Shown: positions 26,640 to 64,000 of the stretch, one piece after another
Layout of the letters: every line of letters begins with the position of its first letter
Position numbering within the stretch: the first letter of the stretch is position 1
NCBI RefSeq assembly: GCF_964355755.1
Contig: NC_092670.1
Coordinates: 5,667,001-5,731,000 of the forward strand
DNA: 64,000 nt
Direction of reading: 5' to 3'
Source: Antedon mediterranea
Lineage: Eukaryota; Echinodermata; Crinoidea; Comatulida; Antedonidae
The notes under the pieces: generated by a model
Seen by the model: the letters and a program-made list of their open reading frames with translations, nothing else
What the model was told of the DNA's origin: nothing
Databases searched by the model: none
Made by a program: the position numbers and the translations under genes

Positions 26640-26980
26640 TGTAATTGGTTATCCGCAACGAAGTTGCAGGATAACCTCTTGTGATTGTACGAAATCATCA
26701 TCAACATCAACTTTTTATTAGTTATCCGCATTCAGCGGATAACTCCTTGTAACTGTCCTGTTTCATCATTAGTTATCCGCTTAGTAGCGGATAACTCCTT
26801 GTGATTGTAGTGGATCAATATTTATTTTTTTAGTTATCCGCTTAGTAGCGGATAACTCCTTGTGATTGTATTGGATCAATATTTTTCTGTATTATTGGTT
26901 ATCCGCAACGAAGTTGCAGGATAACCTCTTGTGATTGTACGAAATCATCATCATCATCATCATCATCATCAACTTTTTAT
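26640..26980 (+). repeat. Cluster of Helentron-like 5' ends (G, A, A, A, G types)
   Basis: Five successive short 5' terminal pieces start near 26642 (GGTTATCCGC type), 26719, 26770 and 26832 (AGTTATCCGC type), and 26894 (GGTTATCCGC type). Each opens with a small palindrome. They end in T-rich or CATCATCAAC stretches where the next element begins. No gene is present. Confidence 0.8.
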
Positions 26981-28530
26981 TAGTTATCCGCATTGAGCGG
27001 ATAACTCCTTGTAACTGTACTGGATCAATTTCTATGTTTTTCTTCTTTCTTTCCTCCACTTTTTTGTGGCTCCTGTATCTCTAAAACGTGTTAACATAAC
27101 ATTTCATAACTTTGTCAACATATGAACATTTATATGAAGTTGTGCAGCATGTATTTTTTAAATACGTCAGAGTTGCGCAACATGACTTACGTGCGATTTT
27201 ATGAATTTCAATGATTGATCATAGATTAAAAACCAAGCATAATTTTTTTTTTACACTTTGTGAAAATTTAAGTTTTTTTTGTGGATTAAAAATGGCATGT
27301 TTTACAAGAAGTTACGCGCGCACGCGAATTTAAGATTTCAAAATGCGCAAAATTTATTTCTAATCAACTTTCTACGCGTTTCATGTCATTTTAAGCATGT
27401 CAACAATTCCCAGGGATGCGCAAATTTTTGCGCGCGCGGTGTACACAAAGCGTGAAATACGTCAATGTTTTACGTAAATCATATTTTTCCAGCCTTTCAT
27501 AGTAATTTTACCAAATATGGAACCATTTCGACTTAAAATTACGTCAATACGAGCACGTCGAATTTGACAATTTGCGCATGTTTTTGATGAAAAAGTTCAA
27601 AAATTCGTCAAAATCATGCCCTTTTTTAAACAGTCGTAGTTTCTAAACTAAACGGTGAAAGTTATTTTTATTACATATTCTGGAAGTTGATGAGTTGTAG
27701 ATATCGGTTCATGCTTTAATATGGCTAACCGGACATTGTGACGTCATCATATGGCCACGCGAATATAAAATATAGGATTTGTGTATCTTTCATCATAGCT
27801 CATCACATTTAATAGAGCGCATCTCCACTTATCTGTTTTTCATTTTCATCCCGATTTTTATATTTTCTAGGTCAATCAACTATCTTTCGCATGAGTTAAA
27901 AATATTTTAATTTTTATGACGTCATGATGTCTAAAAATGTAAATAACCTGGGTCACTTATTTTCATCTTTACAGTAAATTTCAATCTGTTATAGCTCGTC
28001 AGAATAAAACGTGATAATCATGATTAAAACATTTTCAGGAAGCTAATGGATTTTAGATACGAATTCATGTAAACATTTTGCCAATTAGATGTTGTGACGT
28101 CATCATATGGCCAGTTAAATAAAAAAAGTCGTATTTTCATCTTTTGCATCATAGTTCATTACATTTAAAAGAGCGCGCATCAATATTTCACATATTCAAA
28201 TTTCTTAAACACGTTAATATGTTGTTGCTGAGATAATTTCCTTCCGAAATTGCTACCTTAGTTTTTCATTTTGAAACCGTCAACATTAAAAATTGGAATA
28301 AATAGCGGGTCCCGTAATTTCACCTATTCTACACTGTATGTGATATGTATACAGATTATACTGTGTATGACACAAAATAACAGAATTCAGCAATAACAAC
28401 ATATCATATTCTTCAGTTCAGGTCATAATGCCATAATCTTTTTCTGTGTGCAATATTCCAACGTATGACGTGCACGTGGCGTTTGATGTGCGGATAACTA
28501 ACTCGTCAAAGTGACGAGTTTCATGTCTAG
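26981..28530 (+). mobile_element. Helentron-like unit 1 (A type, complete)
   Basis: 5' end AGTTATCCGCATTGAGCGG; 3' end GCGGATAACT, hairpin AACTCGTC/GACGAGTT, then TCATGTCTAG. About 1.55 kb. AT-rich interior without a shared long frame; several TGACGTCA palindromes. Confidence 0.75.
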
Positions 28531-30055
28531 TTCTTCTTCTTTCTTTCTGTATGATTTTTGTGTAACGCTTTTCTCTAAAACTCGCAAACATAACATTTCG
28601 GTAACTATGTTAACATTTTGACATTTATGTAACGTCGTCAAGCGAAGCTTTTCATGATGTTTACAATTGCGCAACGTGACGTATGCGCGATTTAACGATT
28701 TTCTCGTATCTAACATATGTCGAAAACCAAATAACATTTTAAAGTGAAACTTTGCAAAAGTTTAATTTATATCATGCGCTAACTTTCTGTTTAAAAAAAA
28801 TTGCGTGTTTTACACAAAGTTACGCGCGCACGCGTATTTAAAATTTCAAAATGCGCAAAATTAATTTATAATCAACTTTCTACGCGTTTTATGTCGTTTT
28901 AAGCATGTCAAAAATTCCCACGCGTGCGCACATTTTTACGTGTGCGGTGCGCACGTAGCATTGAAAACGTATTTTTTTCGCGTGATTTATGTTTTTCCAG
29001 CCTTTTCTAGCAATTTTACCAAATTTTAAACAATTTCGACTTAAAGATACGTCATACGAGCACATCGAATTGGACAATTTGCGCGCGTTTTTTATGAAAA
29101 GGTTAAAAAATTCGTTTAAAATAAGCCTTTTTTTAAACAGTCGTAATTTCTAAACTAGACGGTCAACTTTTTGTGGATGACATATTCTGGAAGTAGATGA
29201 GTTGTAGATATCGGATCAGGTATTAATATGGCTAACCGGACATTGTGACGTCATCGTATGGCCACGCGAATATAAAATTTAGGATTTTTGTATCTTTCGT
29301 CATAACTCATCACATTGAATAGAGCGCATCTCCACCTATTCGTTTTCCATTTTCACCCTGATTTTGATATTGTCTAGGTCAATCAACTATCTTTCGCATG
29401 AGTTAAAAATATTTTAATTTTTTTGACGTCATCATGCCTAAAAATTTAAATCACGTGTGGCATCAATTTCATCTTTACAGTAAATTTTAATCTGTTATAG
29501 CTCATAAGAATAAAATGTGATAATCACAATTAAAACTTTTTCTGGAAGCTATTGGATTGTAGATACGAAATTATGTAAAAGTGTTGCCAATCGGATGTTG
29601 TGACGTCATCATATGGCCAGTTAAATAAAAAAGGTCGTATTTTCATCTTTTGCGTCATAATTCATTACATTTAAAAGAGCGCGCATCAATATTTCACGTA
29701 TTCAAATTTCTTCTACACGCTAATACGTTGTTGCTGAGATAATTTTCTTTCGGAATTGCTAACTTCGCGTTTCATTTTAAAACCGTCAACATGTTAAAAA
29801 TTGCAATAAATAGCGGGTCCCGTAATTTCACCTATTCTACACTGTATGTGATATGGATACAGATTATACTGTGTATACTATATATGAATTTAAATAATAA
29901 AATTCAGCAATAACAACATATCATATTCTTCAGTTCAGGTCATAATGCCAACGTGAACACTTCCTTTTGTCCTCAACCTATCCCTTTAATGTTAATGTTG
30001 CACCACTTGCGCGGCGGATAACCAAACTCGTCAAAGTGACGAGTTACATGTCTAG
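28531..30055 (+). mobile_element. Helentron-like unit 2 (G-type body, 5' end displaced)
   Basis: Starts directly after the CTAG of unit 1 with a CTTCTTTCTTTC tract. It ends GCGGATAACC, hairpin, ACATGTCTAG. Its missing 5' end fits the G-type piece at 26894-26980. Confidence 0.72.
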
Positions 30056-31581
30056 TCTGTATTATTCTTTCTTTCTGTCATTTTTGTGCAGAGCATATCT
30101 CAAAAACGTGTAAAGTTAACATTTCATAACTTTGTCAACATATGGGTATTCACCTGAAGTTGTGCTTTTCTATTTTTGAATGACGTCAGAATTGCACAAC
30201 ATGACTTACGCGCGTTTTAACGAATTTCGCGTATTTAACATACATCGAAAACCATATAACAATTTAAATTGAAACTTAACAAAAGTTTTAGTTATATCTT
30301 GCGCTAACTGACTTTGTAAAAAAAATGGCATGTTTTACACGAAGTTACGCGCGCACGCGCGTTTAAAATTTCAAAATGCGAAAAATCAATTTCTAATCCA
30401 CTTTCTACGCGTTTCATGTCATTTTGAGCAGGTAAAAAATTCCCACGCGTGCGCATTTCTTTACGCGCGCCGTGCGCACGTAGCGTTGAAAACAATTTTT
30501 TTCACGTGATTTATGTTTTTCCAGCCTTTTGTAGTAATTTTACCAACTTTTAAACGATTTAGACTTAAAATTACGTCATACGGGCACGTCGAATTGGATA
30601 ATTTACGTGGGTTTTTGATGAAAAAGGTAAAAAATTCGTTAAAATTTGTCAAAATTATGCCTTTTTTTAAACAGTCGTAATTTCTAAACTGGACGGTCAA
30701 CTTTTTGTGGATGACATATTCTTGAAGTTGATGAGGTGTAGATATCGGATCATGTAATAATATGGCTAACCGGACATTGTGACGTCATCGTATGGCCACG
30801 CGAATATAAAATATAGGATTTTTGTATCTTTCATCATAGCGCATGACATTTAATAGAGCGCATCTCCAATTATCTGTTTTCCATTTTTACCCCGATTTTT
30901 ATATTATCTAGGTCAATCAACTATCTTTCATATGAGTTAAAAATATTTTAATTTTTATGACGTCATCATGTCTAAAAATGTAAATAACGTGGGTCACTTA
31001 TTTTCGTCTTTACAGTAAATTTCAATCTGTTATAGCTCGTCAGAATAAAACGTGATAATCATGATTAAAACGTTTTCTGGAAGCTATTGGATTGTAGATA
31101 CGAATTTATGTAAACATTTTGCCAATCGGATGTTGTGACGTCATCATATGACCAGTTAAATAAAAAAAGTCGTATTTTCATCTTTTGCGTCATAATTCAT
31201 CACATTTAAAAGAGCGCGCATCAATATTTTACGTATTTAAATTTCTTCTACACATTAATATGTTGTTGCCGAGATAATTTCCTTCCGAAATTGCTATCTT
31301 AGTGTTTCATTTTGATACCGTCGCTATGTTAAAAATTGGAATAAATGACGGGTCCAGTCATTTCACCTATTCTACACTGTATGTAATAATGTATACAGAT
31401 TATATTGTATATATAATATGACACAAAATAACAGAATTCAGCAATAACAACATATCATATTCTTCAGTTCAGGTCATATTGCCATAATCTTTTTCTGTGT
31501 GCAATATTCTAACGTATGACGTCTACGTGGCCTTTGTCGTGCGGATAACTAACTCGTCAAAGTGACGAGTTACATGTCTAG
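30056..31581 (+). mobile_element. Helentron-like unit 3 (A-type body, 5' end displaced)
   Basis: Starts TCTGTATTATTC and ends GCGGATAACT, hairpin, ACATGTCTAG. The 5' piece ending TCTGTATTA near 26893 restores the usual sequence, with a 9-base overlap. Confidence 0.72.
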
Positions 31582-31711
31582 TTAGTTATCCGCACTTGGC
31601 GGATAACTCCTTGTTATTGTATGGGATCTTTTTCCTTTTTGGTTATCCGCAACGAAGTTGCAGGATAACCTCTTGTGATTGTACGAAATCATCATCAACA
31701 TCAACTTTTTA
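31582..31711 (+). repeat. Two Helentron-like 5' ends (A type, then G type)
   Basis: AGTTATCCGCACTTGGCGG near 31584 and GGTTATCCGCAACGAAGTTG near 31641. Each is cut off where the next element starts. Confidence 0.78.
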
Positions 31712-33305
31712 TTGGTTATCCGCAACGAAGTTGCAGGATAACCTCTTGTGATTGTACGAAATCATCATCAACATCAACTTTTTATTTCTCTTCTTTCTTT
31801 CTGTATGATTTTTGTGGAACGCTTTTCTCGAAAACTTGCAAACATAACATTTTGTAACTTTCTCAACATATCGTCATGCACATGAAGATGTGCAGCGAAG
31901 CTTTTCATGATATTTACAATTGCGCAACGTGACCTACGCGCGATTTAATGATTTTGTCGTATTTAACATAGCTCGACAACCAAATAACATTTCAACTTGA
32001 AACTTTGCAAAAGTTTAATTTATATCATGCGCTAACTTTCTGTTGAAAAAAAATTGCGTGTTTTACACAAAGTTACGCGCGCACGCGCATATAAAATTTC
32101 AAAATGCGCAAAATTAATTTATAATCAACTTTCTACGCGTTTCATGTCGTTTTAAGCATGTCAAAAATTCCCACGCGTGCGCACATTTTTACGTGTGCGG
32201 TGCGCACGTAGCATTGAAAACGTATTTTTTTCGCGTGATTTATGTTGTTCCAGCTTTTTCAAGTAATTTTACCAAATTTTAAACAATTTCGACTTAAAGA
32301 TACGTCATACGAGCACGTCGAATTGGACAATTGGCGCGCGTTTTTTATGAAAAGGTTAAAAAATTCGTTTAAAATATGCCTTTTTTAAAACAGTCGTAAT
32401 TTCTAAACTAGACGGTCAACTTTTTGTGGATGGCATATTCTGGAAGTAGATGAGTTGTAGATATCGAATCAGGTAGTAATATGGCTAACTGGACATTGTG
32501 ACGTCATCGTATGGCCACACGAATATAAAATTTAGGATTTTTGTATCTTTCGTCATAGCTCATCACATTGAATAGAGCGCATCTCCACTTATCCGTTTTC
32601 CATTTTCACCCCGATTTTGATATTGTCTAGGTCAATCAAGTATCTTTCGCATGAGTTAAAAATATTTTAATTTTTTTGACGTCATCATGCCTAAAAATTT
32701 AAATCACGTGTGGCATTAATTTCATCTTTACAGTAAATTTTAATCTGTTATAGCTCGTAAGAATAACATGTGATAATCACGATTAAAACTTTTTCTGGAA
32801 GCTATTGGATTGTAGATACGAAATTATGTAAAAATGTTGCCAATCGGATGTTGTGACGTCATCATATGGCTAGTTAAACAAAAAAGGTCGTATTTTCATC
32901 TTTTGCGTCATAATTCATTACATTTAAAAGAGTGCGCATCAATATTTCACGTATTCAAATTTCTTCTACACGCTAATACGTTGTTGCTGAGATAATTTCC
33001 TTTCGGAATTTCTACCTTCGCGTTTCATTTTAAAACCGTCAACATGTTAAAAATTGCAATAAATAGCGGGTCCCGTAATTTCACCTATTCTACACTGTAT
33101 GTGATATGGATACAGATACTGTGTATACTATATATGAATTTAAATAATAAAATTCAGCAATAACAACATATCATATTCTTCAGTTCAGGTCATAATGCCA
33201 ACGTGAACACTTCCTTTTGTCCTCAACCTATCCTCTTAATGTTTATGTTGCACCACTTGCGCGGCGGATAACCAAACTCGTCAAAGTGACGAGTTACATG
33301 TCTAG
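31712..33305 (+). mobile_element. Helentron-like unit 4 (G type, complete)
   Basis: 5' GGTTATCCGCAACGAAGTTG, uninterrupted to the 3' hairpin and CTAG at 33302-33305. It serves as the reference for an intact G-type element (about 1.59 kb). Confidence 0.78.
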
Positions 33306-33440
33306 TTGGTTATCCGCAACGAAGTTGCAGGATAACCTCTTGTGATTGTACGAAATCATCATCAACATCAACTTTTTATTGGTTATCCGCAACGAAGTTG
33401 CAGGATAACCTCTTGTGATTGTACGAAATCATCATCATCA
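33306..33440 (+). repeat. Two Helentron-like 5' ends (both G type)
   Basis: Start at 33306 and about 33379. The first ends in ACTTTTTAT, the second in ATCATCATCA. Confidence 0.78.
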
Positions 33441-35030
33441 TTGGTTATCCGCAACGAAGTTGCAGGATAACCTCTTGTGATTGTACGAAATCATCATCTT
33501 TTTATTTTTCTTCTTTCTTTCTGTATGATTTTTGTGTAACGCTTTTCTCTAAAACTCGCAAACATAACATTTCGGTAACTATCTTAACATATTGACATTT
33601 ACGTAACGTCGTCAAGCGAAGCTTTTCATGATGTTTGCAATTGCGCAACGTGACGTACGCGCGATTTAACGATTTTCTCGTATTTAACATATGTTGAAAA
33701 TCAAATAACATTTCAACTTGAAACTTCGCAAAAGTTTAATTTATATCATGCGCTAACTTTATGTTGAAAAAAAATTGCGTGTTTTACACAAAGTTACGCG
33801 CGCACGCGCATTTAAAATTTCAAAATGCGCAAAATTAATTTATAATCAACTTTCTACGCGTTTCTGGTCGTTTTAAGCATGTCAAAAATTCCCACGCGTG
33901 CGCACATTTTTACGTGTGCGGTACGCACGTAGCATTGAAAACGTATTTTTTTCGCGTGATTTATGTTTTTCCAGCCTTTTCTAGTAATTTTACCAAATTT
34001 TAAACAATTTCGACTTAAAGATACGTCATACGAGTACGTCGAATTGGACAATTTGCGCGCGTTTTTTATGAAAAGGTTAAAAAATTCGTTTAAAATATGC
34101 CTTTTTTTAAACAGTCGTAATTTCTAAACTAGACGGTCAATTTTTTGTGGATGACATATTCTGGAAGTAGATGAGTGGTAGATATCGGATCAGGTATTGA
34201 TATGGCTAACCGGACATTGTGACGTCATCGTATGGCCACGCAAATATAAAATTTAGGATTTTTGTATCTTTCGTCATAGCTCATCACATTGAATAGAGCG
34301 CATCTCCACTTATTCGTTTTCCATTTTCACCCCGATTTTGATATTGTCTAGGTCAATCAACTATCTTTCGCATGAGTTAAAAATATTTTAATTTTTTTGA
34401 CGTCATCATGCCTAAAAATTTAAATCACGTGTGGCATTAATTTCATCTTTACAGTAAATTTTAATCTGTTATAGCTCGTAAGAATAAAATGTGATAATCA
34501 CGATTAAAACTTTTTCTGGAAGCTATTGAATTTTAGATACGAAATTATGTAAAAATGTTGCCAATCGGATGTTGTGACGTCATCATATGGTCAGTTATAT
34601 AAAAAAGGTCGTATTTTCATCTTTTGCGTCATAATTCATTACATTTAAACGAGCGCGCATCAATATTTCACGTATTCAAATTTCTTCTACACGCTAATAC
34701 GTTGTTGCTGAGATAATTTCCTTTCGGAATTGCTACCTTCGCGTTTCATTTTAAAACCGTCAACATGTTAAAAATTGCAATAAATAGCGGGTCCCGGAAT
34801 TTCACCTATTCTATGTATGTCACTGTATGTGATATGGATACAGATTATACTGTGTATACTATATATGAATTTAAATAATAAAATTCAGCAACATATCATA
34901 TTCTTCAGTTCAGGTCATAATGCCAACGTGAACACTTCCTTTTGTCCTCAACCTATCCCCTTAATGTTAATGTTGCACCACTTGCGCGGCGGATAACCAA
35001 ACTCGTCAAAGTGACGAGTTACATGTCTAG
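33441..35030 (+). mobile_element. Helentron-like unit 5 (G type, complete)
   Basis: Intact from TTGGTTATCC to CTAG (35027-35030). A short minus frame at 33854-34051 recurs in many units and is treated as non-coding. Confidence 0.76.
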
Positions 35031-36566
35031 TCATCTTTTTATTCTTCTTCTTTCTTTCTGTATGATTTTTGTGTAACGCTTTTCTCCAAAACTCGCAAAC
35101 ATAACATTTCGGTAACTATGTTAACATTTTGACATTTATGTAACGTCGTCAGGCGAAGCTTTTCATGATGTTTACAATTGCGCAACGTGACGTACGCGCG
35201 ATTTAACGATTTTCTCGTATTTAACATATGTCTACAACCAAATAACATTTCAACTTGAAACTTTGCAAAAGTTTAATTTATATCATGCGCTAACTTTCTG
35301 TTGAAAAAAAATTGCGTGTTTTACATAAAGTTACGCGCGCACGCGCATTTAAAATTTCAAAATGCGCAAAATTAATTTATAATCAACTTTCTACGCGTTT
35401 CATGTCGTTTTAAGCATGTCAAAAATTCCCACGCTTGAGCACATTTTTACGTGTGCGGTGCGCACGTAGCATTGAAAACGTATTTTTTTCGCGTGATTTA
35501 TGTTTTTCCAGCCTTTTCTAGTAATTTTACCAAATTTTAAACAATTTCGACTTAAAGATACGTCATACGAGCACGTCCAATTGGACAATTTGCGCGCGTT
35601 TTTTATGAAAAGGTTAAAAAATTCGTTTAAAATATGTCTTTTTTTAAACAGTCGTAATTTCTAAACTAGACGGTCAAATTTTTGTGGATGACATATTCTG
35701 GAAGTAGATGAGTTGTAGATATCGGATCAGGTATTAATATGGCTAACCGGACATTGTGACGTCATCGTATGGCCACACGAACATAAAATTTAGGATTTTT
35801 GTATCTTTCGTCATAGCTCATCACATTGAATAGAGCGCATCTCGACTTATCCGTTTTCCATATTCCCCCCGATTTTGATAATGTCTAGGTCAATCAACTG
35901 TCTTTCGCATGAGTTAAAAATAATTTAATTTTTTTGACGTCATCATGCCTAAAAATTTAAATCACGTGTGGCATCAATTTCATCTTTACAGACAATTTTA
36001 ATCTGTTATAGCTCGTAAGAATAAAATGTGATAATCACGATTAAAACTTTTTCTGTAAGCTATTGGATTGTAGATACGAAATTATGTAAAAATGTTGCCA
36101 ATCGGATGTTGTGACGTCATCATATGGCCAGTTAAATAAAAAAGGTCGTATTTTCATCTTTTGCATCATAATTCATTACATTTAAAAGAGCGCGCATCAA
36201 TATTTCACGTATTCAAATTTCTTCTACACGCTAATACGTTGTTGCTGAGATAATTTCCTTTCGGAATTGCTACCTTCGCGTTTCATTTTAAAACCGTCAA
36301 CATGTTAAAAATTGCAATAAATAGCGGGTCCCGTAATTTCACCTATTCTACACTGTATGTGATATGGATACAGATTATACTGTGTATACTACATATGAAT
36401 TTAAATAATAACATTCAGCAATAACAACATATCATATTCTTCAGTTCAGGTCATAATGCCATAGTGAACACTTCCTTTTGTCCTCAACCTATCCCCTTAA
36501 TGTTAATGTTGCACCACTTGCGCGGCGGATAACCAAACTCGTCAAAGTGACGAGTTACATGTCTAG
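35031..36566 (+). mobile_element. Helentron-like unit 6 (G-type body)
   Basis: Begins TCATCTTTTTATTC, which continues the 5' piece ending ATCATCATCA at 33440. G-type 3' hairpin and CTAG at the end. Confidence 0.74.
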
Positions 36567-38016
36567 TTTCTCTTCTTTCTTTCTGTATGATTTTTGTGGA
36601 ACGCTTTTCTCGAAAACTTGCAAACATAACATTTTGTAACTTTCTCAACATATCGTCGTGCACATGAAGATGTGCAGCGAAGCTTTTCATGATGTTTAAA
36701 ATTGCGCAACGTGACTTACGCGTGATTTAACGATTTTGTCGTATTTAACATAGCTCGACAACCAAATAACATTTCAACTTGAAACTTTGCAAAAGTTTAA
36801 TTTATATCATGCGCTAACTTTCTGTTGAGAAAAAATTGCGTGTTTTACACAAAGTTACGCGCGCACGCGCATATAAAATTTCAAAATGCGCAAAATTAAT
36901 TTATAATCAACTTTCTACGCGTTTCATGTCGTTTTAAGCATGTCAAAAATTCCCACGCGTGCGCACATTTTTACGTGTGCGGTGCGCACGTAGCATTGAA
37001 AACGTATTTTTTTCGCGTAATTTATGTTTTTCCAGCCTTTTCTAGTAATTTTACCAAATTTTAAACAATTTCGACTTAAAGATACGTCATACGAGCACGT
37101 CGAATTGGACAATTTGCGCGCGTTTTTTATGAAAAGGTTAAAAAATTCGTTTAAAATATGCCTTTTTTTAAACAGTCGTAATTTCTAAACTAGACGGTCA
37201 ACTTTTTATGGATGGCATATTCTGGAAATAGATGAGTTGTAGATATTGGATCAGGTATTAATATGGCTAACCGGACATTGTGACGTCATCGTATGGCCAC
37301 GCGAATATAAAATTTAGGATTTTTGTATCTTTTGTCATAGCTCATCACATTGAATAGAGCGCATCTCCACTTATCCGTTTTCCATTTTCACCCCGATTTT
37401 GATATTGTCTAGGTCAATCAACTATCTTTCGCATGAGTTAAAAATATTTTAATTTTTTTAACGTCATCGTGCCTAAAAATTTAAATCACGTGTGGCATTA
37501 ATTTCATCTTTACAGTAAATTTTAATCTGTTATAGCTCGTAAGAATAAAATGTGAAAATCACGATTAAAACTTTTTCTGGAAGCTATTGGATTGTAGATA
37601 CGAAATTATGTAAAAATGTTGCCAATCGGATGTTGTGACGTCATCATATGGCCAGTTAAATAAAAAAGGTCGTATTTTCATCTTTTGCGTCATAATTCAT
37701 TACATTTAAAAGAGCGCGCATCAATATTTCACGTATTCAAATTTCTTCTACACGCTAATACGTTGTTGCTGAGATAATTTCCTTTCGGAATTGCTACCTT
37801 CGCGTTTCATTTTAAAACCGTCAACATGTTAAAAATTGCAATAAATAGCGGGTCCCGTAATTTCACCTATTCTTCACTGTATGTGATATGGATACAGATT
37901 ATACTGTGTATACTATATATGAATTTAAATAATAAAATTCAGCAATAACAACATATCATATTCTTCAGTTCAGGTCATAATGCCAACGTGAACACTTCCT
38001 TTTGTCCTCAACCTAT
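36567..38016 (+). mobile_element. Helentron-like unit 7, first part (G-type body)
   Basis: Continues the 5' piece 33306-33378. It is split at CCTAT|CCCC by the transposon 38017-47588 and resumes at 47592-47665. Confidence 0.78.
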
Positions 38017-38744
38017 TAGACAGGTTCCATTTCTCAAAAAACGGCCTAGAAAACGAATCAAGAAGCATTTTTGGGTAGAAGCTGGGATCCACTTGATTTA
38101 GTATATTTCGACCTCGCTGATTACGAATATGGCGGATCCCAAGCGAAATTCGGCCATCTAAGCCCTTAATTTCCATAATTAAAAATGGCGGCCATTTTTT
38201 ATAATTACCCTATATCTCGAGAACCACTAGTCACAGATAATTAATTTTGGTGTCAAAATGTTTTAAATATATGTTTTTATATTCACTTTAATGACACATT
38301 TTCTCAAAAAATGGATGCAAGTCGTATTTCTGACATTTTGACCTTTGACCTTGATTTATTGTATCTCAGTAACCAATAATCGGAGAGACACAAAATAGGG
38401 CTCAAATTGTTCAGAAACTATACATTCATATTTATTATAATGAAATGTTTTTAAAAAAAATGGCCGATTCTACAACTATTGACCTTTGAACTATTAGTCA
38501 AATATAATAATATAATAATAATATAACTTTGAAAATTGTGGTCTTATGAATTTTTTTTTCTTTTTAAATTGTTTAAAAAATGTGTGTTTCTATCCAGTCT
38601 AATGGAATATTTTGTACAAGAATGGCCGATAGTATGGTTATTGACCTTTTAACTACAGCATAGGCCTACTGTATACTAAATATAATATACAGTAATTGCA
38701 TAACTATGAAATTATTTATACACAATAATAATTAGTAAAATTAT

Positions 38745-39545: not shown

Positions 39546-39566
39546 GGAATGAACATGTTAAGGGCA

Positions 39567-40620: not shown

Positions 40621-40689
40621 CATCTTTGTCTGGTGGTGTCCTTTATCGACAGTTTTAAGTTAGGCATGCCATGTTAAAAAAAAAAAAAA

Positions 40690-41010: not shown

Positions 41011-41213
41011 CATTCGTTCGTTCGTTTTTATTTCACAATGCATCAAACTTAATATTTTTACATAATAAGTATTAAATAAAAAAATGCAAAGCCTGGAAAA
41101 GACCAAATAAGCTCAATATAGAGCTTTAAGCCTGGTTTCACCAGTACAAAATACACTAATAATTGTATTAATTACAATAGACAATAATTAAATATTAATT
41201 AAAGTAGTAGAAA

Positions 41214-41244
<31 letters not shown>

Positions 41245-52243: not shown

Positions 52244-53754
52244 TATTATTCTTCTGTCTTTCTCCCTCACTTTTTGTGCAGAGCGTATCTCTAAAATGGG
52301 TAAACATAACATTTCATAAATTTGTCAACATATGGGCATTTACGTGAAGTTGTGCACCTCCTATTTTTGAATGACGTCAGAGTTGCGCAACGTGACTTAC
52401 GCGCGATTTTATGATTTTTTATGATTGCTCATAGACTAAAAACCAAGCATAATTTTGTTTTGACACTTTGTGAAATTTTAAGTCATATCAAGCGCAAACT
52501 TTTTGTGGATTAAAAATGGCATGTTTTACAAGAAGTTACGCGCGCACGCGCATTTAAAATTTCAAAATGCGCAAAATTAATTTATAATCAACTTTCTACG
52601 CGTTTCATGTTGTTTTAAGCATGTAAAAAATTCCCACGCGTGCGCAACTTTTTACGTGTGCGGTTGGCACGTAGCATTAAAAACATGTTTTTTTCGAGTG
52701 ATTTATGTTTTTCCAGCCTTTTATAGTAATTTTACCAACTTTTAAACACTTTCGACTTACAGTTACGTCATACGAGCACGTCGAATTGGACAATTTGCGC
52801 ACGTTTTTGATGAAAAAGTACAAATATTTGTCAAAATTTTGCCTTTTTTTAAACAGTCGAAATTTCTAAACTACACGGTCAACTTTTTGTGGATGACATA
52901 TTCCGGAAGTTGATGAGTTGTAGATATCGGATCATGTATTAATATGGCTAACCGGACATTTTAACGTCATCGTATGGCCACGCAAATATAAAATTGAGGA
53001 TTTTTGTATCTTTCGTCATAGCTCATCACATTTAATAGAGCGCATCTCCACTTATCCATTTTCCATTTTCAACCCGATTTTGATATTGTCTAGGTCAATC
53101 AACTATCTTTCGCATGAGTTAAAAATATTTTAATGATTATGACGTCATCATGCCTAAAAATTTAAATTACATGTGGCATTAATTTCATCTTTACAGAACA
53201 TTTTAATCTGTTATAGCTCGTAAGAATAAAATGTGATAATCACGATTAAAACGTTTTCTGGAAGCTATTGGATTGTAGATACAAAATCATGTAACAATTT
53301 GGCAAATCGGATGTTGTGACGTCATCATATGGCCAGTTAAATAACAAAAGTCGTATTTTCATATTTTGCGTCATAGTTCATTACATTTAAAAGAGCGCGC
53401 ATTAATATTTTACGTATTAAAATTTCTTCTACACGTTAATATGTTGTTGCTGAGATAATTTCCTTCCGAAATTGCTATATCAGTGTTTCATTTTCATACC
53501 GTCACCATGTTAAAAAATGGAATAAATGACGGGACCCGTAATTTCGCCTATCCTACACTGTATTAATATGTATACAGATTATACTATGTATACTGTAAAT
53601 AGTATATGACACACAATATACAGCATTTAGCACTAACAACATATTATACTCTTCAGTTCATGTCAATATGCCATAATCTTTTTCTGTGTCCACGTGCACG
53701 TGGCGTTTGTCGTGCGGATAACTAACTCGTCAAAGTGACGAGTTTCATGTCTAG
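52244..53754 (+). mobile_element. Helentron-like unit 11 (A-type body)
   Basis: A-type 3' hairpin; its 5' end is plausibly the piece at 26770-26831. Confidence 0.7.
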
Positions 53755-55262
53755 TTCTTCTTTCTTTCTGTCATTTTTGTGCAGAGCGTATCTCTAAAAC
53801 GTGTAAAGTTAACATTTTATAACTTTGTCAACATATGGGCAATCACGTGAAGTTGTGCTTTCCTATAATTGAATGACGTCAGAGTTGCGCAACATGACTT
53901 ACGCGCGTTTTTATGAATTTCGCGTATTTAACATAGATCGAAAACCATATAACGATTTAAATTGAAACTTAGCAAAAGTCTAATTTATATTGTGCGCTAA
54001 CTTTTTGTGCACTAAAAATGGCATGTTTTACACGAAGTTACGCGCGCACGCGCGTTTAAAATTTTACAATGCGAAAAATCAATTTCTAATCAACTTTCTA
54101 CGCGTTTCATGTCATTTTGAGCATGTCAAAAATTCCCACACGTGCGCAAATTTTTACACGCGTGGTGCACACGTAGCGTTAAAAACGTAATTTTTTTGAG
54201 TGATTTATGTTTTCCCAGCCTTTTCTATTAATTTTACCAACTTTTAAACAATTTCGACTTCAAATTACGTCATACGAGCACGTAGAATATGATAATTTGC
54301 GCGGTTTTTTGATGAAAAACTTCAAAAATTTGTCAAAATTAAGCCTTTTTTTAAACAATCGTAGTTTCTAAACTAAACGGTAAAAATTATTTTTTTTACA
54401 TATTCTGGAAGTTGATGAGTTGTAGATATCAGATCATGCATTAATATGGCTAACCGGACATTGTGACGTCATCGTATGGCCACGCGAATATGAAATTTAG
54501 GATTTTTGTATCTTTCGTCATAACTCCTCACATTTAATAGAGCGCATCTCCACTTATCCGTTTTCCATTTTCACCCCGATTTTGATATTGTCTAGGTCAA
54601 TCAACTATATTTAGCATGAGTTAAAATATTTTAATTTTTATGACGTCATCATGCCTAAAAATTTAAATTACGTGTGGCATTAATTTCATCTTTACAGTAA
54701 ATTTCAATATGCTATAGCTCGTAAGAATAAAATGTGATAATCACGATTAAAACGTTTTCTTGAAGCTATTGAATTGTAGATACAAAATCATGTGAACATT
54801 TTGCCAATCGGATGTGGTGACGTCATCATATGGCCAGTTAAATAAAAAAAAGTCGTATTTTCATATTTTGCGTCATAGTTCATTACATTTAAAAGAGCGC
54901 GCATTAATATTTCACGTATTCAAATTTCTTCTACACGTTAATATGCTGTTGCTGAGATAATTTCCTTCTAAAATTGCTACCTTCGCGTTTCATTTTAAAA
55001 CCATCAACATGTTAAAAATTGCAATAAATAGCGGGTCCCGTAATTTCCCCTATTCTACACTGTATGTGATATGTATACAGATTATACTGTTTTACTATAT
55101 GAATCAAAATAATAGAATTCAGCAATAACAACATATCATAGTCTTCAGTTCAGGTCATAATTCCATAATCTTTTTCCGTGTGCAATATTCCAACGTATGG
55201 CGTGGACGTGGCGTTTGTCGTGCGGATAACTAACTCGTCAAAGTGACGAGTTTCATGTCTAG
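53755..55262 (+). mobile_element. Helentron-like unit 12 (A-type body)
   Basis: A-type 3' hairpin with TCATGTCTAG; its 5' end is plausibly the piece at 26719-26769. Confidence 0.7.
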
Positions 55263-55399
55263 TTTTTTGGTTATCCGCAACGAAGTTGCAGGATAACCTC
55301 TTGTGATTGTACGAGATCAACATCATTGGTTATCCGCAACGAAGTTGCAGGATAACCTCTTGTGATTGTACGAAATCATCATCAACATCAACTTTTTAT
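55263..55399 (+). repeat. Two Helentron-like 5' ends (G type)
   Basis: Start near 55266 and 55326, both with the GCAACGAAGTTGC palindrome. Confidence 0.78.
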
Positions 55400-56989
55400 T
55401 AGTTATCCGCACTTGGCGGATAACTCCTTGTTATTGTATGGGATCAATATTTTTTTCTGTATTATTCTTCTTTCTTTCTCGCTATTTTTGTGTAGAGCGT
55501 TTCTCTAAAATGTGTAAACATAACATTTTATAACTTTGACAACCTGTGGGCATTTACGTGAAGTTGTGCACCTCCTATTTTTGAATTACGTCAGAGTTGC
55601 GCAACGTGACTTACGCGCGATTTTATGATTTTTTATGATTGATCATAGATTAAAAACTAAAAGTGATTTTTAATTGACACTTTGTGAAAGTTTAATTTAT
55701 ATCATGCGCTAACTTTCTGTTGGAAAAAAATTGCGTGTTTTACACAAAGTTACGCGCGCACGCGCATTTAAAATTTCAAAATGCGCAAAAATAATTTCTA
55801 ATCAACTTTCTACGCGTTTCATGTCATTTTAAGCATGTACAAAATTACCGCGCGCGCGAAAAATATTACGCGCACGGTGCGCATAGAGCATGAAAATCAT
55901 GTTTTTTTCTCTTGAATTGTGATTTTCCAGCCTTTCCTAGTCATTTTCAAAAAGATTGACATCATTTCAAATTAAAATTACGTCATACGAACACGTTGAT
56001 TTAGCCCATTTGCGCGCGTTTTAGTTGAAAAAGTTACAAAATGTTGTCAAAATTATGCCTATTTTGAATGTTTTATAGCTTCTCAGGATCAACGATTACC
56101 CCTAATTTTTTTAACTTAATATGTAAGCAGATATGTTGTAGATATGAATTCATGCAGAATTTTTACCTCACGGATGTTGTGACGTCATCATATGGCCACA
56201 CGAATGTAAAATATAGGATTTTTTTGTCTTTCGTTATTGCTCATCACATTCAATGGAGCGCATCACGCTTATATGTATTTCTTTTTCTCCGAGATTTTAA
56301 TATTGTCTAGGTCAATCAACTATCTTTCGCATGAGATAAAAATATTTTAATTTTTATGACGTCATCATGCCTAAAAATTTTAATTACGTGGGTCATTAAT
56401 TTCATCTTTACAGTAAATTTTAATCTGTAATAGCCCGTCAAAATAAAATGTGATAATCATGATTAAAACATTTTCTGGAAGCTCTTGGATTGTAGATATT
56501 AAATCATGTGAACATTTTGCCAATCAGATGCTGTGACGTCATCATATTGCAAGTTAAATAAAAAAAGTCGTATTTTCATCTTTTGCATCATAGTTCATTA
56601 TATTTAAAAGAGCGCGCATCAATATTAAACGTATTCAAATTTCTTCTACACGTTAATATGTTGTTGCTGAGATAATTTGCTTCCGAAATTGCTATATCTT
56701 AGTGTTTCATCTTGATACCGTCGCCATGTTACAAATTTGAATAAATGGCGGGTCCCGTAATTTCACCTATTCTACACTGTATGTAACATGTATACAGATT
56801 ATACTGTTTGCATGTATATACTATATGACACAAAATTGACAGAATTCAGCACTAACAACATATCATATTCTTCAGATCAGGTCATAATGCCATAATTTTT
56901 TTCTGTGTGCAATATTCTAACGTATGACGTGCACGTGGCGTTTGTCGTGCGGATAACTAACTCGTCAAAGTGACGAGTTACATGTCTAG
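55400..56989 (+). mobile_element. Helentron-like unit 13 (A type, complete)
   Basis: AGTTATCCGCACTTGGCGG at the start; GCGGATAACT, hairpin and CTAG at the end. Confidence 0.76.
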
Positions 56990-58512
56990 TTCTTCTTTCT
57001 TTCTGTATGATTTTTGTGGAACGCTTTTCTCGAAAACTTGCAAACATAACATTTTGTAACTTTCTCAACATATCGTCATGCACATGAAGATGTGCAGCGA
57101 AGCTTTTCATGATATTTACAATTGCGCAACGTGACCTACGCGCGATTTAACGATTTTGTCGTATTTAACATAGCTCGACAACCAAATAACATTTCAACTT
57201 GAAACTTTGCAAAAGTTTAATTTATATCATGCGCTAACTTTCTGTTGAAAAAAAATTGCGTGTTTTACACAAAGTTACGCGCGCACGCGCATATAAAATT
57301 TCAAAATGCGCAAAATTAATTTATAATCAACTTTCTACGCGTTTCATGTCGTTTTAAGCATGTCAAAAATTCCCACGCGTGCGCACATTTTTACGTGTGC
57401 GGTGCGCACGTAGCATTGAAAACGTATTTTTTTCGCGTGATTTATGTTGTTCCAGCTTTTTCAAGTAATTTTACCAAATTTTAAACAATTTCGACTTAAA
57501 GATACGTCATACGAGCACGTCGAATTGGACAATTGGCGCGCGTTTTTTATGAAAAGGTTAAAAAATTCGTTTAAAATATGCCTTTTTTTAAACAGTCGTA
57601 ATTTCTAAACTAGACGGTCAACTTTTTGTGGATGGCATATTCTGGAAGTAGATGAGTTGTAGATATCGAATCAGGTAGTAATATGGCTAACTGGACATTG
57701 TGACGTTATCGTATGGCCACACGAATATAAAATTTAGGATTTTTGTATCTTTCGTCATAGCTCATCAGATTGAATAGAGCGCATCTCCACTTATCCGTTT
57801 TCCATTTTCACCCCGATTTTGATATTGTCTAGGTCAATCAAGTATCTTTCGCATGAGTTAAAAATATTTTAATTTTTTTGACGTCATCATGCCTAAAAAT
57901 TTAAATCACGTGTGGCATTAATTTCATCTTTACAGTAAATTTTAATCTGTTATAGCTCGTAAGAATAAAATGTGATAATCACGATTAAAACTTTTTCTGG
58001 AAGCTATTGGATTGTAGATACGAAATTATGTAAAAATGTTGCCAATCGGATGTTGTGACATCATCATATGGCTAGTTAAACAAAAAAGGTCGTATTTTCA
58101 TCTTTTGCGTCATAATTCATTACATTTAAAAGAGTGCGCATCAATATTTCACGTATTCAAATTTCTTCTACACGCTAATACGTTGTTGCTGAGATAATTT
58201 CCTTTCGGAATTGCTACCTTCGCGTTTCATTTTAAAACCGTCAACATGTTATAAATTGCAATAAATAGCGGGTCCCGTAATTTCACCTATTCTACACTGT
58301 ATGTGTGATATGGATACAGATTATACTGTGTATACTATATATGAATTTAAATAATAAAATTCAGCAATAACAACATATCATATTCTTCAGTTCAGGTCAT
58401 AATGCCAACGTGAACACTTCCTTTTGTCCTCAACCTATCCCCTTAATGTTAATGTTGCACCACTTGCGCGGCGGATAACCAAACTCGTCAAAGTGACGAG
58501 TTACATGTCTAG
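56990..58512 (+). mobile_element. Helentron-like unit 14 (G-type body)
   Basis: Continues the 5' piece 55326-55399. G-type 3' end. Confidence 0.74.
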
Positions 58513-58715
58513 TTGGTTATCCGCAACGAAGTTGCAGGATAACCTCTTGTGATTGTACGAAATCATCAACATCAACTTTTTTGGTTATCCGCAACGAAGT
58601 TGCAGGATAACCTCTTGTGATTGTACGAAATCATCATCAACATCAACTTTTTAGTTATCCGCACATGGCAGTGTGCGGATAATTAGTTATCCGCACATGG
58701 CAGTGTGCGGATAAT
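58513..58715 (+). repeat. Helentron-like 5' ends: two G type and two short A-type palindromes
   Basis: G-type pieces start near 58513 and 58582. From 58652 a 32-bp A-type palindrome is repeated head to tail, with a third copy opening unit 15. Confidence 0.78.
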
Positions 58716-60300
58716 TAGTTATCCGCACATGGCAGTGTGCGGATAACTCCTTGTTATTGTATGGGATCTTTTTTTTCTTTTTCTGTATTATTCTTCTGTC
58801 TTTCTTCCTATTTTTGTGAGCCCTGTTTCTCTAAAATGTGTAAACAGAACATATCATAACTTTGTCAACATATAGATATTTACGTGAAGTTGTGCACCTC
58901 CTATTTTTGAAAAACGTCAGAGTTGCGCAACGTGACTTGCGCGCAATTTTATGAATTTAAATGATTGATCATAGATTAAAAACCGAAAGTCATTTTGTAT
59001 TGAGACTTGGTGAAAATTTAATTCATATCAAGAGTCAACTTTCTGTGGATTAAAAATGGCATGTTTCACACAAAGTTACGCGCGCACGCGCATTTAAAAT
59101 TTTAAAATGCGAAAAATCAATTTCTAATCAACTTTCTACGCGTTTCTTGTCATTTTGAGCATGTCAAAAATTCCCACACGTGCGCAAATTTTTACGCGCG
59201 AGGGGCGCAAGTAGCGTTAAAAACATACTTTTTTCGCGTGATTTATGTTTTTCCAGCCTTTTCTAGTAATTTTACCAACTTTTAAACAATTTCGACTTAA
59301 AATGACGTCATACGAGCACGTCGAATTGGATAATTTGCGCGCGTATTTGATCAAAAAGCTAAAAAAATCATCAAAATTATGCCTTTTTTAAAACAGTTGT
59401 AGTTTCTAAACTAAACGGTGAAAGTTATTTTTATTAAATATTCTGGAAGTTGATGAGTTGTAGATATCAAATCATACATTAATATGGCCAACAGGACATT
59501 ATGACGTCATCGTATGGCCACGCGAATATAAAATATAGGATTTTTGTCTCTTTTGTTATTGCTCATCACATTCAATGGAGCGCATCACGCTTATCCGTAT
59601 TCCATTTTCTCCGAGATTTTAATATCGTCTAGGTCAATCAACTACCTTTCGCATGAGTTAAAAATATTTTAATTTTTGTAACGTCATCATGCCTAAAAAT
59701 TTTAATTACGTGGGTCATTAATTTCATCTTTCCAGGAAATTTTAATCTGTTATCGCTCGTAAGAATAAAATCGGATAATCACGATTAAAATGTTTTCTGG
59801 AAGCTATTGGATTGTAGATACGAAATCATGTAAACATTTTGGCAATCGGATGTTGTGACGTCATCATATGGCCAGTTAAATAAAAAAAGTCGTATTTTCG
59901 TCTTTTGCGTCATAGTTCATTACATTTAAAAGAGCGCGCATCAATATTTCACGTGTTCAAATTTCTTCTACACGTTAATATGTTGTTGCTGAGATAATTT
60001 CCTTCCGAAATTGCTACATTCGCGTTTCATTTTGAAACCGTCAATATGTTAAAAATTTGAATAAATAGCGGGTCCCGTAATTTCACCTATTCTACACTGT
60101 ATGTGATATGTATACAGATTATACGCTGTATACTATATGACACAAATTAACAGAATTCAGCAATAACAACATATCATATTCTTCAGTTCAGGTCACAATG
60201 CCATAATCTTTTTCCGTGTGCAATATTCCAACGTATGACGTGCACGTGGCGTTTGTCGTGCGGATAACTAACTCGTCAAAGTGACGAGTTTCATGTCTAG
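58716..60300 (+). mobile_element. Helentron-like unit 15 (A type, complete)
   Basis: Starts with the third 32-bp palindrome and ends GCGGATAACT, hairpin, TCATGTCTAG. Confidence 0.75.
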
Positions 60301-61811
60301 TATTATTCTTCTGTCTTTCTCCCTCACTTTTTGTGCAGAGCGCATCTCTAAAATGGGTAAACATAACATTTCATAACTTTGTCAACATATGGGCATTTAC
60401 GTGAACTTGTGCACCTCCTATTTTTGAATGACGTCAGAGTTGCGCAACGTGACTTACGTGCGATTTTATGATTTTTTATGATTGCTCATAGACTAAAAAC
60501 CAAGCATAATTTAGTTTTGACACTTTGTGAAAATTTAAGTCATATCAGGTGCAAACTTTTTATTGATTAAAAATGGCATGTTGTACAAGAAGTTACGCGC
60601 GCACGCGCATTTAAAGTTTCAAAATGCGTAAAATTAATTTTTAATCAACTTTTTACACGACTCATGACATTTCGCGCATGTCAAAAATTCCCACGTGCAC
60701 GCATTTTTTTACGCGCGCGGTGGCCACGTACCGTGAAAAACATCTTTTTTTCTCATGAATTATGTTTTTCCAGCCTTCTAGAGTAATTTTACCATTTTAA
60801 AACCATTTGTGACTTTAAATTACGTCATACGAGCACGTCGAATTGAAAAATTTACGCGCGTTTTTGATCAAAAATCTAAAAAAATCGTCAAAATTATGCC
60901 TTTTTTTAAACAGTCGTAGTTTCTAAACTAAACGGTGAAAGTTATTTTTATTACATATTCTGGAAGTTGATGAGTTGTAGATATCAAATCATACATTAAT
61001 ATGGCTAACAGGACATTTTGACGTCATCGTATGGCCACACGAATATAAAATATAGGATTTTTGTCTCTTTCGTTATTGCTCATCACATTCAATGGAGCGC
61101 ATCACGCTTATCCGTATTCCATTTTCTCCGAGATTTTAATATTGTCTAGGTCAATCAACTACCTTTCGCATGAGTTAAAAATATTTTAATATTTGTAACG
61201 TCATCATGCCTAAAAATGTTAATTACTTGGGTCATTAATTTCATCTTTACAGTAAATTTTAATCTGTTATCGCTCGTAAGAACAAAATGGGATAATCACG
61301 ATTAAAATGTTTTCTGGAAGCTATTGGATTGTAGATACGAAATCATGTAAACATTTTGCCAATCGGATGTTGTGACGTCATCATATGGCCAGTTAAATAA
61401 AAAAAGTCGTATTTTCATCTTTTGCGTCATAGTTCATTACATTTAAAAGAGCGCGCATCAATATTTCACGTGTTCAAATTTCTTCCACACGTTAATATGT
61501 TGTTGCTGAGATAATTTCCTTCCGAAATTGCTACATTCGCGTTTCATTTTGAAACCGTCAATATGTTAAAAATTTGAATAAATAGCGGGTCCCGTAATTT
61601 CACCTATTCTACACTGTATGTGATATGTATACAGATTATACTGTGTATACTATATGACACAAAATAACAGAATTCAGCAATAAAAACATATCATATTCTT
61701 CAGTTCAGGTCACAATGCCATAATCTTTTTCCGTGTGCAATATTCCAACGTATGACGTGCACGTGGCGTTTGTCGTGCGGATAACTAACTCGTCAAAGTG
61801 ACGAGTTTCAT
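60301..61811 (+). mobile_element. Helentron-like unit 16 (A-type body, last bases missing)
   Basis: The 3' hairpin is present, but the terminal GTCTAG is replaced by a G-type 5' end, so the tip was lost or interrupted. Confidence 0.7.
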
Positions 61812-61932
61812 TGGTTATCCGCAACGAAGTTGCAGGATAACCTCTTGTGATTGTACGAAATCATCAACATCAACTTTTTATTAGTTATCCGCACTTGGCG
61901 GATAACTCCTTGTTATTGTATGGGATCAATAT
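61812..61932 (+). repeat. Two Helentron-like 5' ends (G, then A)
   Basis: GGTTATCCGCAACG near 61813 and AGTTATCCGCACTTGG near 61882. Each is truncated by the next insertion. Confidence 0.78.
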
Positions 61933-63536
61933 TTGGTTATCCGCAACGAAGTTGCAGGATAACCTCTTGTGATTGTACGAAATCATCAACATCAACTTTT
62001 TATTTCTCTTCTTTCTTTCTGTATGATTTTTGTGGAACGCTTTTCTCGAAAACTTGCAAACATAACATTTTGTAACTTTCTCAACATATCGTCATGCACA
62101 TGAAGATGTGCAGCGAAGCTTTTCATGATATTTACAATTGCGCAACGTGACCTACGCGCGATTTAACGATTTTGTCGTATTTAACATAGCTCGACAACCA
62201 AATAACATTTCAACTTGAAACTTTGCAAAAGTTTAATTTATATCATGCGCTAACTTTCTGTTGAAAAAAAATTGCGTGTTTTACACAAAGTTACGCGCGC
62301 ACGCGCATATAAAATTTCAAAATGCGCAAAATTAATTTATAATCAACTTTCTACGCGTTTCATGTCGTTTTAAGCATATCAAAAATTCCCACGCGTGCGC
62401 ACATTTTTACGTGTGCGGTGCGCACGTAGCATTGAAAACGTATTTTTTTCACGTGATTTATGTTGTTCCAGCTTTTTCAAGTAATTTTACCAAATTTTAA
62501 ACAATTTCGACTTAAAGATACGTCATACGAGCACGTCGAATTGGACAATTGGCGCGCGTTTTTTATGAAAAGGTTAAAAAATTCGTTTAAAATATGCCTT
62601 TTTTTAAACAGTCGTAATTTCTAAACTAGACGGTCAACTTTTTGTGGATGGCATATTCTGGAAGTAGATGAGTTGTAGATATCGAATCAGGTAGTAATAT
62701 GGCTAACTGGACATTGTGACGTCATCGTATGGCCACACGAATATAAAATTTAGGATTTTTGTATCTTTCGTCATAGCTCATCACATTGAATAGAGCGCAT
62801 CTCCACTTATCCGTTTTCCATTTTCACCCCGATTTTGATATTGTCTAGGTCAATCAAGTATCTTTCGCATGAGTTAAAAATATTTTAATTTTTTTGACGT
62901 CATCATGCCTAAAAATTTAAATCACGTGTGGCATTAATTTCATCTTTACAGTAAATTTTAATCTGTTATAGCTCGTAAGAATAAAATGTGATAATCACGA
63001 TTAAAACTTTTTCTGGAAGCTATTGGATTGTAGATACGAAATTATGTAAAAATGTTGCCAATCGGATGTTGTGACGTCATCATATGGCTAGTTAAACAAA
63101 AAAGGTCGTATTTTCATCTTTTGCGTCATAATTCATTACATTTAAAAGAGTGCGCATCAATATTTCACGTATTCAAATTTCTTCTACACGCTAATACGTT
63201 GTTGCTGAGATAATTTCCTTTCGGAATTGCTACCTTCGCGTTTTATTTTAAAACCGTCAACATGTTAAAAATTGCAATAAATAGCAGGTCCCGTAATTTC
63301 ACCTATTCTACACTGTATGTCACTGTATGTGATATGGATACAGAATATACTGTGTATACTATATATGAATTTAAATAATAAAATTCAGCAATAACAACAT
63401 ATCATATTCTTCAGTTCAGGTCATAATGCCAACGTGAACACTTCCTTTTGTCCTCAACCTATCCCCTTAATGTTAATGTTGCACCACTTGCGCGGCGGAT
63501 AACCAAACTCGTCAAAGTGACGAGTTACATGTCTAG
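61933..63536 (+). mobile_element. Helentron-like unit 17 (G type, complete)
   Basis: Intact from TTGGTTATCC to CTAG (63533-63536). Confidence 0.76.
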
Positions 63537-64000
63537 TTAGTTATCCGCACATGGCAGTGTGCGGATAACTCCTTGTTATTGTATGGGATCTTTTTTTTCT
63601 TTTTTTTCTTTTTCTGTATTATTCTTCTGTCTTTCTTCCTGTTTTTGTGAGCCCTGTTTCTCTAAAATGTGTAAACAGAACATATCGTAACTCTGTCAAC
63701 TTATAGACATTTACGTGAAGTTGTGCACCTCCTATTTTTGAAAAACGTCAGAGTTGCGCAACGTGACTTGCACGCAATTTTATGAATTTAGATGATTGAT
63801 CATAGATTAAAAACCAAAAGTCATTTTGTGTTGAGACTTGGTGAAAATTTAATTCATATCAAGAGTCAACTTTCTGTGGATTAAAAATGGCATGTTTCAC
63901 ACAAAATTAAGCGCGCACGCGCATTTAAAATTTTAAAATGCGAAAAATCCATTTCTAATCAACTTTCTACGCGTTTCTTGTCATTTTTAGCATGTCAAAA
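63537..64000 (+). mobile_element. Helentron-like unit 18 (A type, cut by the window end)
   Basis: Starts AGTTATCCGCACATGGCAG and continues like unit 15 to the edge. Confidence 0.74.

Follow-up and report, generated by a model that had tools for sequence, protein, structure and literature searches.

How does a long, satellite-like series of transposon bodies arise in which many bodies lack a 5' end and the orphan 5' ends lie grouped together? This question is raised by a stretch of 64,000 bp of the Antedon mediterranea genome (assembly GCF_964355755.1, contig NC_092670.1, C1:5667001-5731000), hereafter the window, which we analysed together with the whole genome (354 Mb, 18 contigs). We consider it highly probable that non-autonomous elements of the Helentron type form a recursive nest here, built by insertion of new copies, in the same orientation, mainly into the 5' linker of resident ones. 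The original prediction, made from the letters alone, had described about 17 tandem-looking bodies, many of them headless, with groups of orphan 5' ends, and this picture agrees with the 22 recognisable 5' ends (heads) and 17 3' hairpins (tails) found from window position 26645 to its end, all on the + strand. Its extent had been set too small, as the structure continues 85 kb beyond the window, to C1:5816121. Sixteen of the tails are complete, as tail 61788 is truncated. Only seven heads (26980, 31712, 33441, 55398, 58715, 61933 and 63537) have their own body directly behind them; the remaining heads are grouped together, and 11 bodies begin directly after CTAG.

The elements start with a hairpin opening in 5'-TT(G/A)GTTATCC, end with a 3' hairpin closing in CTAG, and make no target duplication. 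Two main types, A and B, are present in the window, both with a 3' end consisting of a hairpin plus CATGTCTAG. Type A carries the 5' hairpin GGTTATCCGCAACGAAGTTGCAGGATAACC and the 3' sequence GCGGATAACCAA, and type B displays TTAGTTATCCGC..GCGGATAACT at the 5' end and GCGGATAACTAA at the 3' end. The linker, 9-45 nt of variable CAT/AAC units and a T run, lies between the 5' hairpin and the pyrimidine-rich body start TTCTTTCTTTCT. Palindromic subterminal repeats were observed at both ends (GGTTATCCGC/GCGGATAACC in A, AGTTATCCGC/GCGGATAACT in B), and in DNA folding the heads form hairpins with z of -4.7 to -7.8, the tails giving z of -1.9 and -4.3. Together with the mode of entry, which uses sites containing T (A^T or T^T in 75 of 76 cuts) and duplicates no target, as a restored host sequence also shows (see below), and the frame of an autonomous partner beside the array, these features identify the array elements as Helentron/HINE-like; they are non-autonomous. 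Two variants of the ends were also noticed: three perfect 32-base copies of the type B hairpin in a row at window 58651-58746, the first two without a linker, and an extra TTAAATCTAG between a tail and the next head in an array on C2 (R2, 28846), as if two alternative 3' tips had been used.

Removal of an element (TT(G/A)GTTATCC...CTAG) lets the split halves of a linker join without gap or duplicate, and this joining rule was examined in the window array (R0) and six further fetched regions (R1-R6). In parse-free nests, where a head and a headless body enclose either a single complete element or an unbroken succession of them, 21 of 25 joins gave a valid linker, compared with a cross-array background compatibility of heads and bodies of 89/480 (18.5%), and 0 of 20,000 permutations reached 21 (maximum 14). 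A skip-tolerant parse, in which brackets do not cross and heads or bodies may be left out, validated 43 of 60 resumed bodies (R0 13/22, R1 8/8, R2 11/18, R3-R5 3/3, R6 8/9), and the same optimiser applied to bodies shuffled within arrays gave a mean of 27.8 (standard deviation 2.3, maximum 34 in 200 shuffles). R1 closes fully, including linkers cut twice; linkers cut two to four times occur among R1 and R6, and the R6 linker of head 517 still rejoins after repeated insertions. At further loci, beyond the fetched arrays, the restored pairs were 10 of 16 (background 75/378), with 13 of 20,000 permutations as good, and when each body was given its nearest head the restored fraction was 9/11, one of the two failures (C1:3094818) showing an extra headless body, beyond which the host resumes exactly. 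In the window itself, six of the 11 resumed bodies have a valid partner in the skip-tolerant parse. Four of the joins originally proposed restore an intact linker, namely 26895-26978 with body 28531, 33379-33440 with 35031, 33306-33378 with 36567 and 31582-31638 with 50724. Three others did not hold: head 31641 fits 49203 instead of 47666, joining 26832 to 30056 would leave TCTGTATTAT twice and 26832 fits 53755, and 55328 with 56990 restores no known linker.

The bracket was then followed to its outer limits. When the outer flanks (..GTGTAA ending at window 26644 and TGGTAA.. starting at C1:5816122) are joined, they form a 5S-derived short interspersed nuclear element (SINE), a family of about 300 bp with a 5S rRNA head which is present in high copy number, many copies being 98-99% identical. 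Of 1,370 candidates 40 were scored, and in all 40 the SINE runs uninterrupted from query position 17-24 to 320 of 320, through the junction at 160, at 98-99% identity. Since the SINE is restored through the junction, the 122,477 bp between the flanks (window 26645 to C1:5816121) must have come into a single SINE copy at a single A^T, which decisively establishes this interval as one bracket within a single SINE. It contains 47 recognised heads and 44 tails, family sequence making up 63%, and its outermost head (26647) and last body, 119 kb apart, restore a linker that is found intact elsewhere in the genome. A tandem satellite with a transposon-derived unit of about 1.5 kb, grown by unequal crossing-over, would account for bodies lying head to tail at this spacing and for neighbouring copies that hardly differ, such as those of the R1 heads 317 and 381, whose bodies are identical. 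However, the units are not homogenised, types A and B standing adjacent at about 80-85% identity, and the breaks fall at the TT..CTAG ends rather than independently of them; linkers are moreover restored at a distance and the SINE across 122 kb. A satellite origin is disfavoured and extremely improbable.

Nesting of this type is not confined to the window. Genome-wide counts by exact patterns, for which reversed-pattern controls gave 0, revealed 424 same-orientation 5'-into-5' junctions and 0 opposite-orientation ones. Headless bodies directly behind a tail numbered 402, similar to the 424 orphan heads, while intact linkers came to 203 for type A and 114 for type B, and exact tails to 1,548. 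About 57% of the pattern-detected 5' ends are thus interrupted (424/741), an approximate value as the patterns differ in gap range. The claim of nested brackets in place of a simple tandem array was supported by linker restoration against shuffles, by the outside loci, by the restored SINE, by the uniform orientation and by the linker-less control described next.

The choice of target is narrow. Of 125 heads in the fetched arrays, 65 lie in the linker beside a head and 14 in a resumed linker (79 in total); 36 stand directly after a tail, two in the 1.5-kb body (one at its very 3' tip), one behind carried DNA, and seven are array starts. These 36 follow the tail with only T between, and their status as linker insertions depends on the parse. 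Twelve linker-less heads were never interrupted (0/12), against 64 of 113 linker-bearing heads (Fisher p = 1e-4); a linker-less body start after any tail was not seen in the fetched arrays, so hidden insertions in linker-less heads are unlikely. Nesting as a mere by-product of a general preference for T-rich DNA could draw on the T-rich targets reported for Helentrons and HINEs (PMC4067079) and on the T run of the linker itself. Nevertheless, a typical type A body offers 10 + strand runs of at least five T and 388 A^T/T^T sites, compared with 1 and 12 in the linker, and took two insertions against 79; the base before the 76 cuts was A in 46 cases, many within CAT repeats, T in 29 and G in one, and opposite-orientation junctions numbered 0, making this explanation very improbable. 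The target had been predicted as a T-rich spot just inside the 5' end; the location was supported, but any A^T or T^T within the 9-45-nt linker, CAT repeats included, is used.

It may also be asked whether a few true nested insertions became numerous through amplification of rare head-in-head composites as units, which is how fungal Helitrons with two 5' termini have been explained (PMC5148889), and one composite with carried DNA was indeed found here. Against this stand cuts spread over 22 distances and repeated strikes at one base. In one case, the same base of the same linker is occupied in hosts 99.08% identical by inner type B elements only 84.76% identical, and the near identity of the hosts beside the divergence of the inner elements indicates independent insertions. 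The recurrent CATCTTTT^TT junction, examined in four places, has inner elements of 84.8-97.1% identity in hosts of 97-99%, so these insertions are independent, and composite copying was rejected for that junction. We regard amplification of few composites as an unlikely source of the arrays.

Composite movement nevertheless offers an origin for the heads and bodies left unpaired by the nested arrangement. Within one linker of R6, a unit was found that contains a headless body, 192 bp of other DNA and then a complete element; the 192 bp match C3 (98-99% in the best two places) and continue there without an element at either end. The simplest account is that transposition of this unit started from an inner 5' end and stopped only at a later tail, earlier tails having been passed over, so that the outer head was left behind. 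At C1:3.09 Mb, a headless type B body follows an inner element, and the host resumes exactly behind it. Unpaired heads and bodies elsewhere would presumably also be products of such movement, and the mirror case, from an outer head to the first tail, corresponds to the model in PMC5148889. Multimeric circles or missed termination could instead deposit several units as rolling-circle concatemers, which would produce many 5' ends and headless bodies without nesting. Missed termination is documented for Helitrons (PMC4067079), and tandem arrays in which several 5' ends go with a single 3' end are known from plants (Xiong 2016, cited in PMC12628747). The 36 heads directly after a tail suit this process, which probably contributes to the direct tail-head joins. 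Concatemers would not, however, split a linker and restore it many kilobases later, place B within A at A^T, or bring independent inner elements to the same base of near-identical hosts; outside the direct tail-head joins (36 of 125 heads), the units are not copies of one circle, as inner and outer types differ. As the explanation of the arrays as a whole, concatemers are quite improbable.

Several observations weigh against the nested interpretation. A strict stack parse restored only 29 of 63 cases, and under its narrower linker grammar 0 of 10 of type B, though complete type A cases reached 29/47 against a shuffled mean of 12.6 (maximum 23 in 2,000). The parse allowed to skip heads or bodies was adopted on account of this strict result, and 17 of its 60 resumed bodies still have no valid partner. 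As intact copies in these arrays and in the same genome supplied part of the linker grammar, it is not fully independent; it also tolerates one T more or less and a free number of CAT/AAC units. In the window, 26832 with 53755 and 26771 with 30056 are both valid pairs which cross each other. Inner copies were not measurably younger than outer ones by private substitutions (39 pairs: 19 fewer, 18 more) or by consensus divergence (31 pairs, 14 against 16), and the Rep-tethering step in the mechanism proposed below is hypothetical. Nearest-neighbour distance gave 19 against 19, so that the expectation of younger inner pairs found no signal in any measure; in the main cluster, private counts range only from 0 to 12, the age order is blurred by composite units, and the age test neither supports nor excludes nesting. 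The predicted rule of last opened, first closed applies to the majority of cases, but strict order is often broken (29/63 strict against 43/60 skip-tolerant) because some heads and bodies are unpaired.

With regard to the machinery, a minus-strand frame lies 3 kb beyond the last local element, 2,163 amino acids long from the listed start and open to 3,086, with DUF6570, Helitron_like_N, PIF1 and Exo_endo_phos domains (PF14214, PF05970 and PF03372 matched). The frame of an autonomous partner that combines Rep, PIF1 helicase and a C-terminal endonuclease thus stands beside the array (L001:3502-9993, minus, open into L002; C1:5734502 onward), and it is apparently intact. Helitron_like_N matches numbered 87 genome-wide, 41 of them in frames of >2,500 amino acids (counted by eye). 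Type C heads and tails flank an open reading frame (ORF) on C11, and a type B head and tail bracket the ORF at the present locus; these are candidate ends of the autonomous element, and the flanks of two autonomous copies contain tandem repeats. Helitron_like_N frames recur in the same orientation at roughly 20-45 kb (for example C8:847488, 870755, 893169 and 936138; C11:10163752 and 10183747). Autonomous copies may sit in nested arrays too. At both loci examined, here and on C11, heads and tails of HINE type lie on the strand opposite to the Rep frame, which thus appears to be antisense to them, whereas the described Helentron/HINE elements are known with a transposase frame oriented like the ends. 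Since ORF reversal is discussed in PMC5148889, the antisense frame was not taken as exclusion from this group.

As to the mechanism, new copies, as shown here, land mainly in the resident's linker, between hairpin and body and always in the same orientation. Each insertion parts a short 5' piece of the resident from its body, and repetition yields runs of orphan 5' ends and, much later, headless bodies, with a closing order that is last in, first out in most cases. We further propose that composite units move when an outer head fires and transposition ends at an inner tail, or when firing of an inner head runs beyond its own tail; either may leave unpaired heads and bodies behind. By binding the 5' hairpin, or by unwinding DNA from the nick at the 5' end, Rep could expose the linker as a single-stranded target of fixed polarity, and such exposure is the likely cause of the targeting. 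More tentatively, and with rather less than even confidence, we suggest that the 5' linker is a landing pad, the resident's hairpin-bound Rep passing the unwound linker to incoming circles so that the family targets itself. If this is true, insertion would spare the resident's hairpin and tail, each nest would yield new composite transposons, and recursive, still mobile arrays would grow, mimic satellites and spare the remaining genome.

With reference to known systems, the elements share palindromic subterminal repeats, a 3' hairpin, T-rich targets, absence of target duplication and a partner with Rep, PIF1 helicase and C-terminal endonuclease with the Helentrons and HINEs of the DINE-1 group (Thomas et al. 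2014, PMC4067079), and the 5' TT, 3' CTAG and A^T insertion with proto-Helentron-Pi of the same paper. They differ in the apparently antisense Rep frame, and in the available text of that source clustering is mentioned as a possible result of missed termination or proximity, with neither a bracket arrangement nor targeting of the 5' linker described. Multiple short 5' termini with one 3' terminus are shared with the non-canonical FoHeli Helitrons of Fusarium and Metarhizium (Chellapan et al. 2016, PMC5148889), for which the proposals comprise self-insertion, reversal of the ORF and a composite transposition that starts at the leftmost 5' end and stops at the first 3' end; a double insertion into the 5' end is considered in one three-copy case. 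The available portions of that paper present a few cases with short repeats, and no matched closing bodies, control counts or test of target choice, unlike the hundreds of junctions, deep nests, restored linkers and restored host SINE found here. The tandem arrays of truncated Helitrons in plant centromeres (Xiong et al. 2016, via PMC12628747) likewise have many 5' ends, fewer 3' ends and a satellite-like look, ascribed to rolling-circle amplification of a circle without a 3' end, whereas here mixed types close as brackets. Tandem arrays in bats and plants (PMC5876387, PMC4067079) share the head-to-tail series, explained there by rolling-circle read-through; most joins here are nested insertions. 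In the literature searched, as far as its texts were available, no description was found of bracket arrays on a genome-wide scale, of the restoration of linkers or of a host site, or of linker dependence, PMC5148889 being the closest. Self-insertion and composite movement had already been proposed for fungal Helitrons; the scale, the bracket grammar and the linker targeting look new.

These arrays provide a path to satellite-like structure by transposition only, whose grammar records the order of insertion and can be tested base by base, and they indicate a rule of target choice for a rolling-circle group with a poorly known integration step. Natural controls are at hand in the linker-less heads and in the same base struck in near-identical hosts, and the nests show how composite and DNA-carrying units originate. 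Annotation by short reads or repeat masking would misread such nested loci as tandem repeats. The features of the window are collected in the table.

Table. Components of the nested array and its host sequence, in window positions unless marked C1
Feature	Position	Strand	Basis or remark
Left half of the 5S-derived SINE hosting the whole structure	26505..26644	+	Rfam 5S at 26505-26625; right half begins C1:5816122, 85 kb past window
Outermost 5' head, type A (head at 26647)	26645..26716	+	Body ends C1:5816121; linker and SINE restored
Three orphan type B 5' heads (26718, 26769/26771, 26830/26832)	26717..26894	+	26830/26832 restores linker with body 53755; 26769/26771 with 30056 is a mutually exclusive alternative
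Orphan type A 5' head, partner of body 28531-30055	26895..26979	+	Exact linker restoration
Uninterrupted type B element	26980..28530	+	Same type at head and tail
Headless type A body, closes head 26895	28531..30055	+	Linker restoration
Headless type B body, unpaired in best parse	30056..31581	+	Skip-tolerant parse
Orphan type B 5' head, partner of body 50724	31582..31638	+	Skip-tolerant parse
Orphan type A 5' head, partner of body 49203 (not 47666)	31639..31711	+	Skip-tolerant parse
Uninterrupted type A element	31712..33305	+	Same type at head and tail
Orphan type A 5' head, partner of body 36567	33306..33378	+	Skip-tolerant parse
Orphan type A 5' head cut within CAT repeat, partner of body 35031	33379..33440	+	Linker restoration
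Uninterrupted type A element	33441..35030	+	Same type at head and tail
Headless body, closes 33379	35031..36566	+	Linker restoration
Headless body, closes 33306; broken by unrelated 9.6-kb element at 38016-47588	36567..47665	+	Skip-tolerant parse
Unrelated inverted-repeat element, LINE-like ORF pair on minus strand, inserted near the end of the body	38016..47588	.	Arms 38060-38687 / 46928-47555, 97%; ORFs of 1100 and 317 amino acids
Headless type A body, unpaired	47666..49202	+	Skip-tolerant parse
Headless body, closes 31639	49203..50723	+	Skip-tolerant parse
Headless body, closes 31582	50724..52243	+	Skip-tolerant parse
Headless type B body, unpaired	52244..53754	+	Skip-tolerant parse
Headless body, closes 26830/26832 in best parse (ambiguous)	53755..55262	+	Skip-tolerant parse
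Two orphan type A 5' heads (55267, 55326/55328), exact partner not found	55267..55397	+	Parse and parse-free test
Uninterrupted type B element	55398..56989	+	Same type at head and tail
Headless type A body, unpaired	56990..58512	+	Parse and parse-free test
Orphan type A heads 58513 and 58581 with two truncated type B hairpins (58651, 58683)	58513..58714	+	End patterns
Uninterrupted type B element	58715..60300	+	Same type at head and tail
Headless type B body, unpaired in best parse, 3' tip cut by next element	60301..61810	+	End patterns
Orphan heads 61811 (A) and 61880 (B)	61811..61932	+	End patterns
Uninterrupted type A element	61933..63536	+	Same type at head and tail
Start of type B element running past window	63537..64000	+	Next same-type tail C1:5761810; antisense Rep-helicase-endonuclease frame lies between

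Two further structures in the window were noticed. The unrelated element at 38016-47588 has arms of 628 nt (97%) and internal short tandem repeats, a flanking TAT may represent its target duplication, and its 1100-amino-acid ORF carries motifs which we take to be reverse-transcriptase-like. At 13932-21320, GGACAACTACCCCC-type minisatellites are inverted around 14-16 kb and 19-21 kb, possibly marking another inverted-repeat element.

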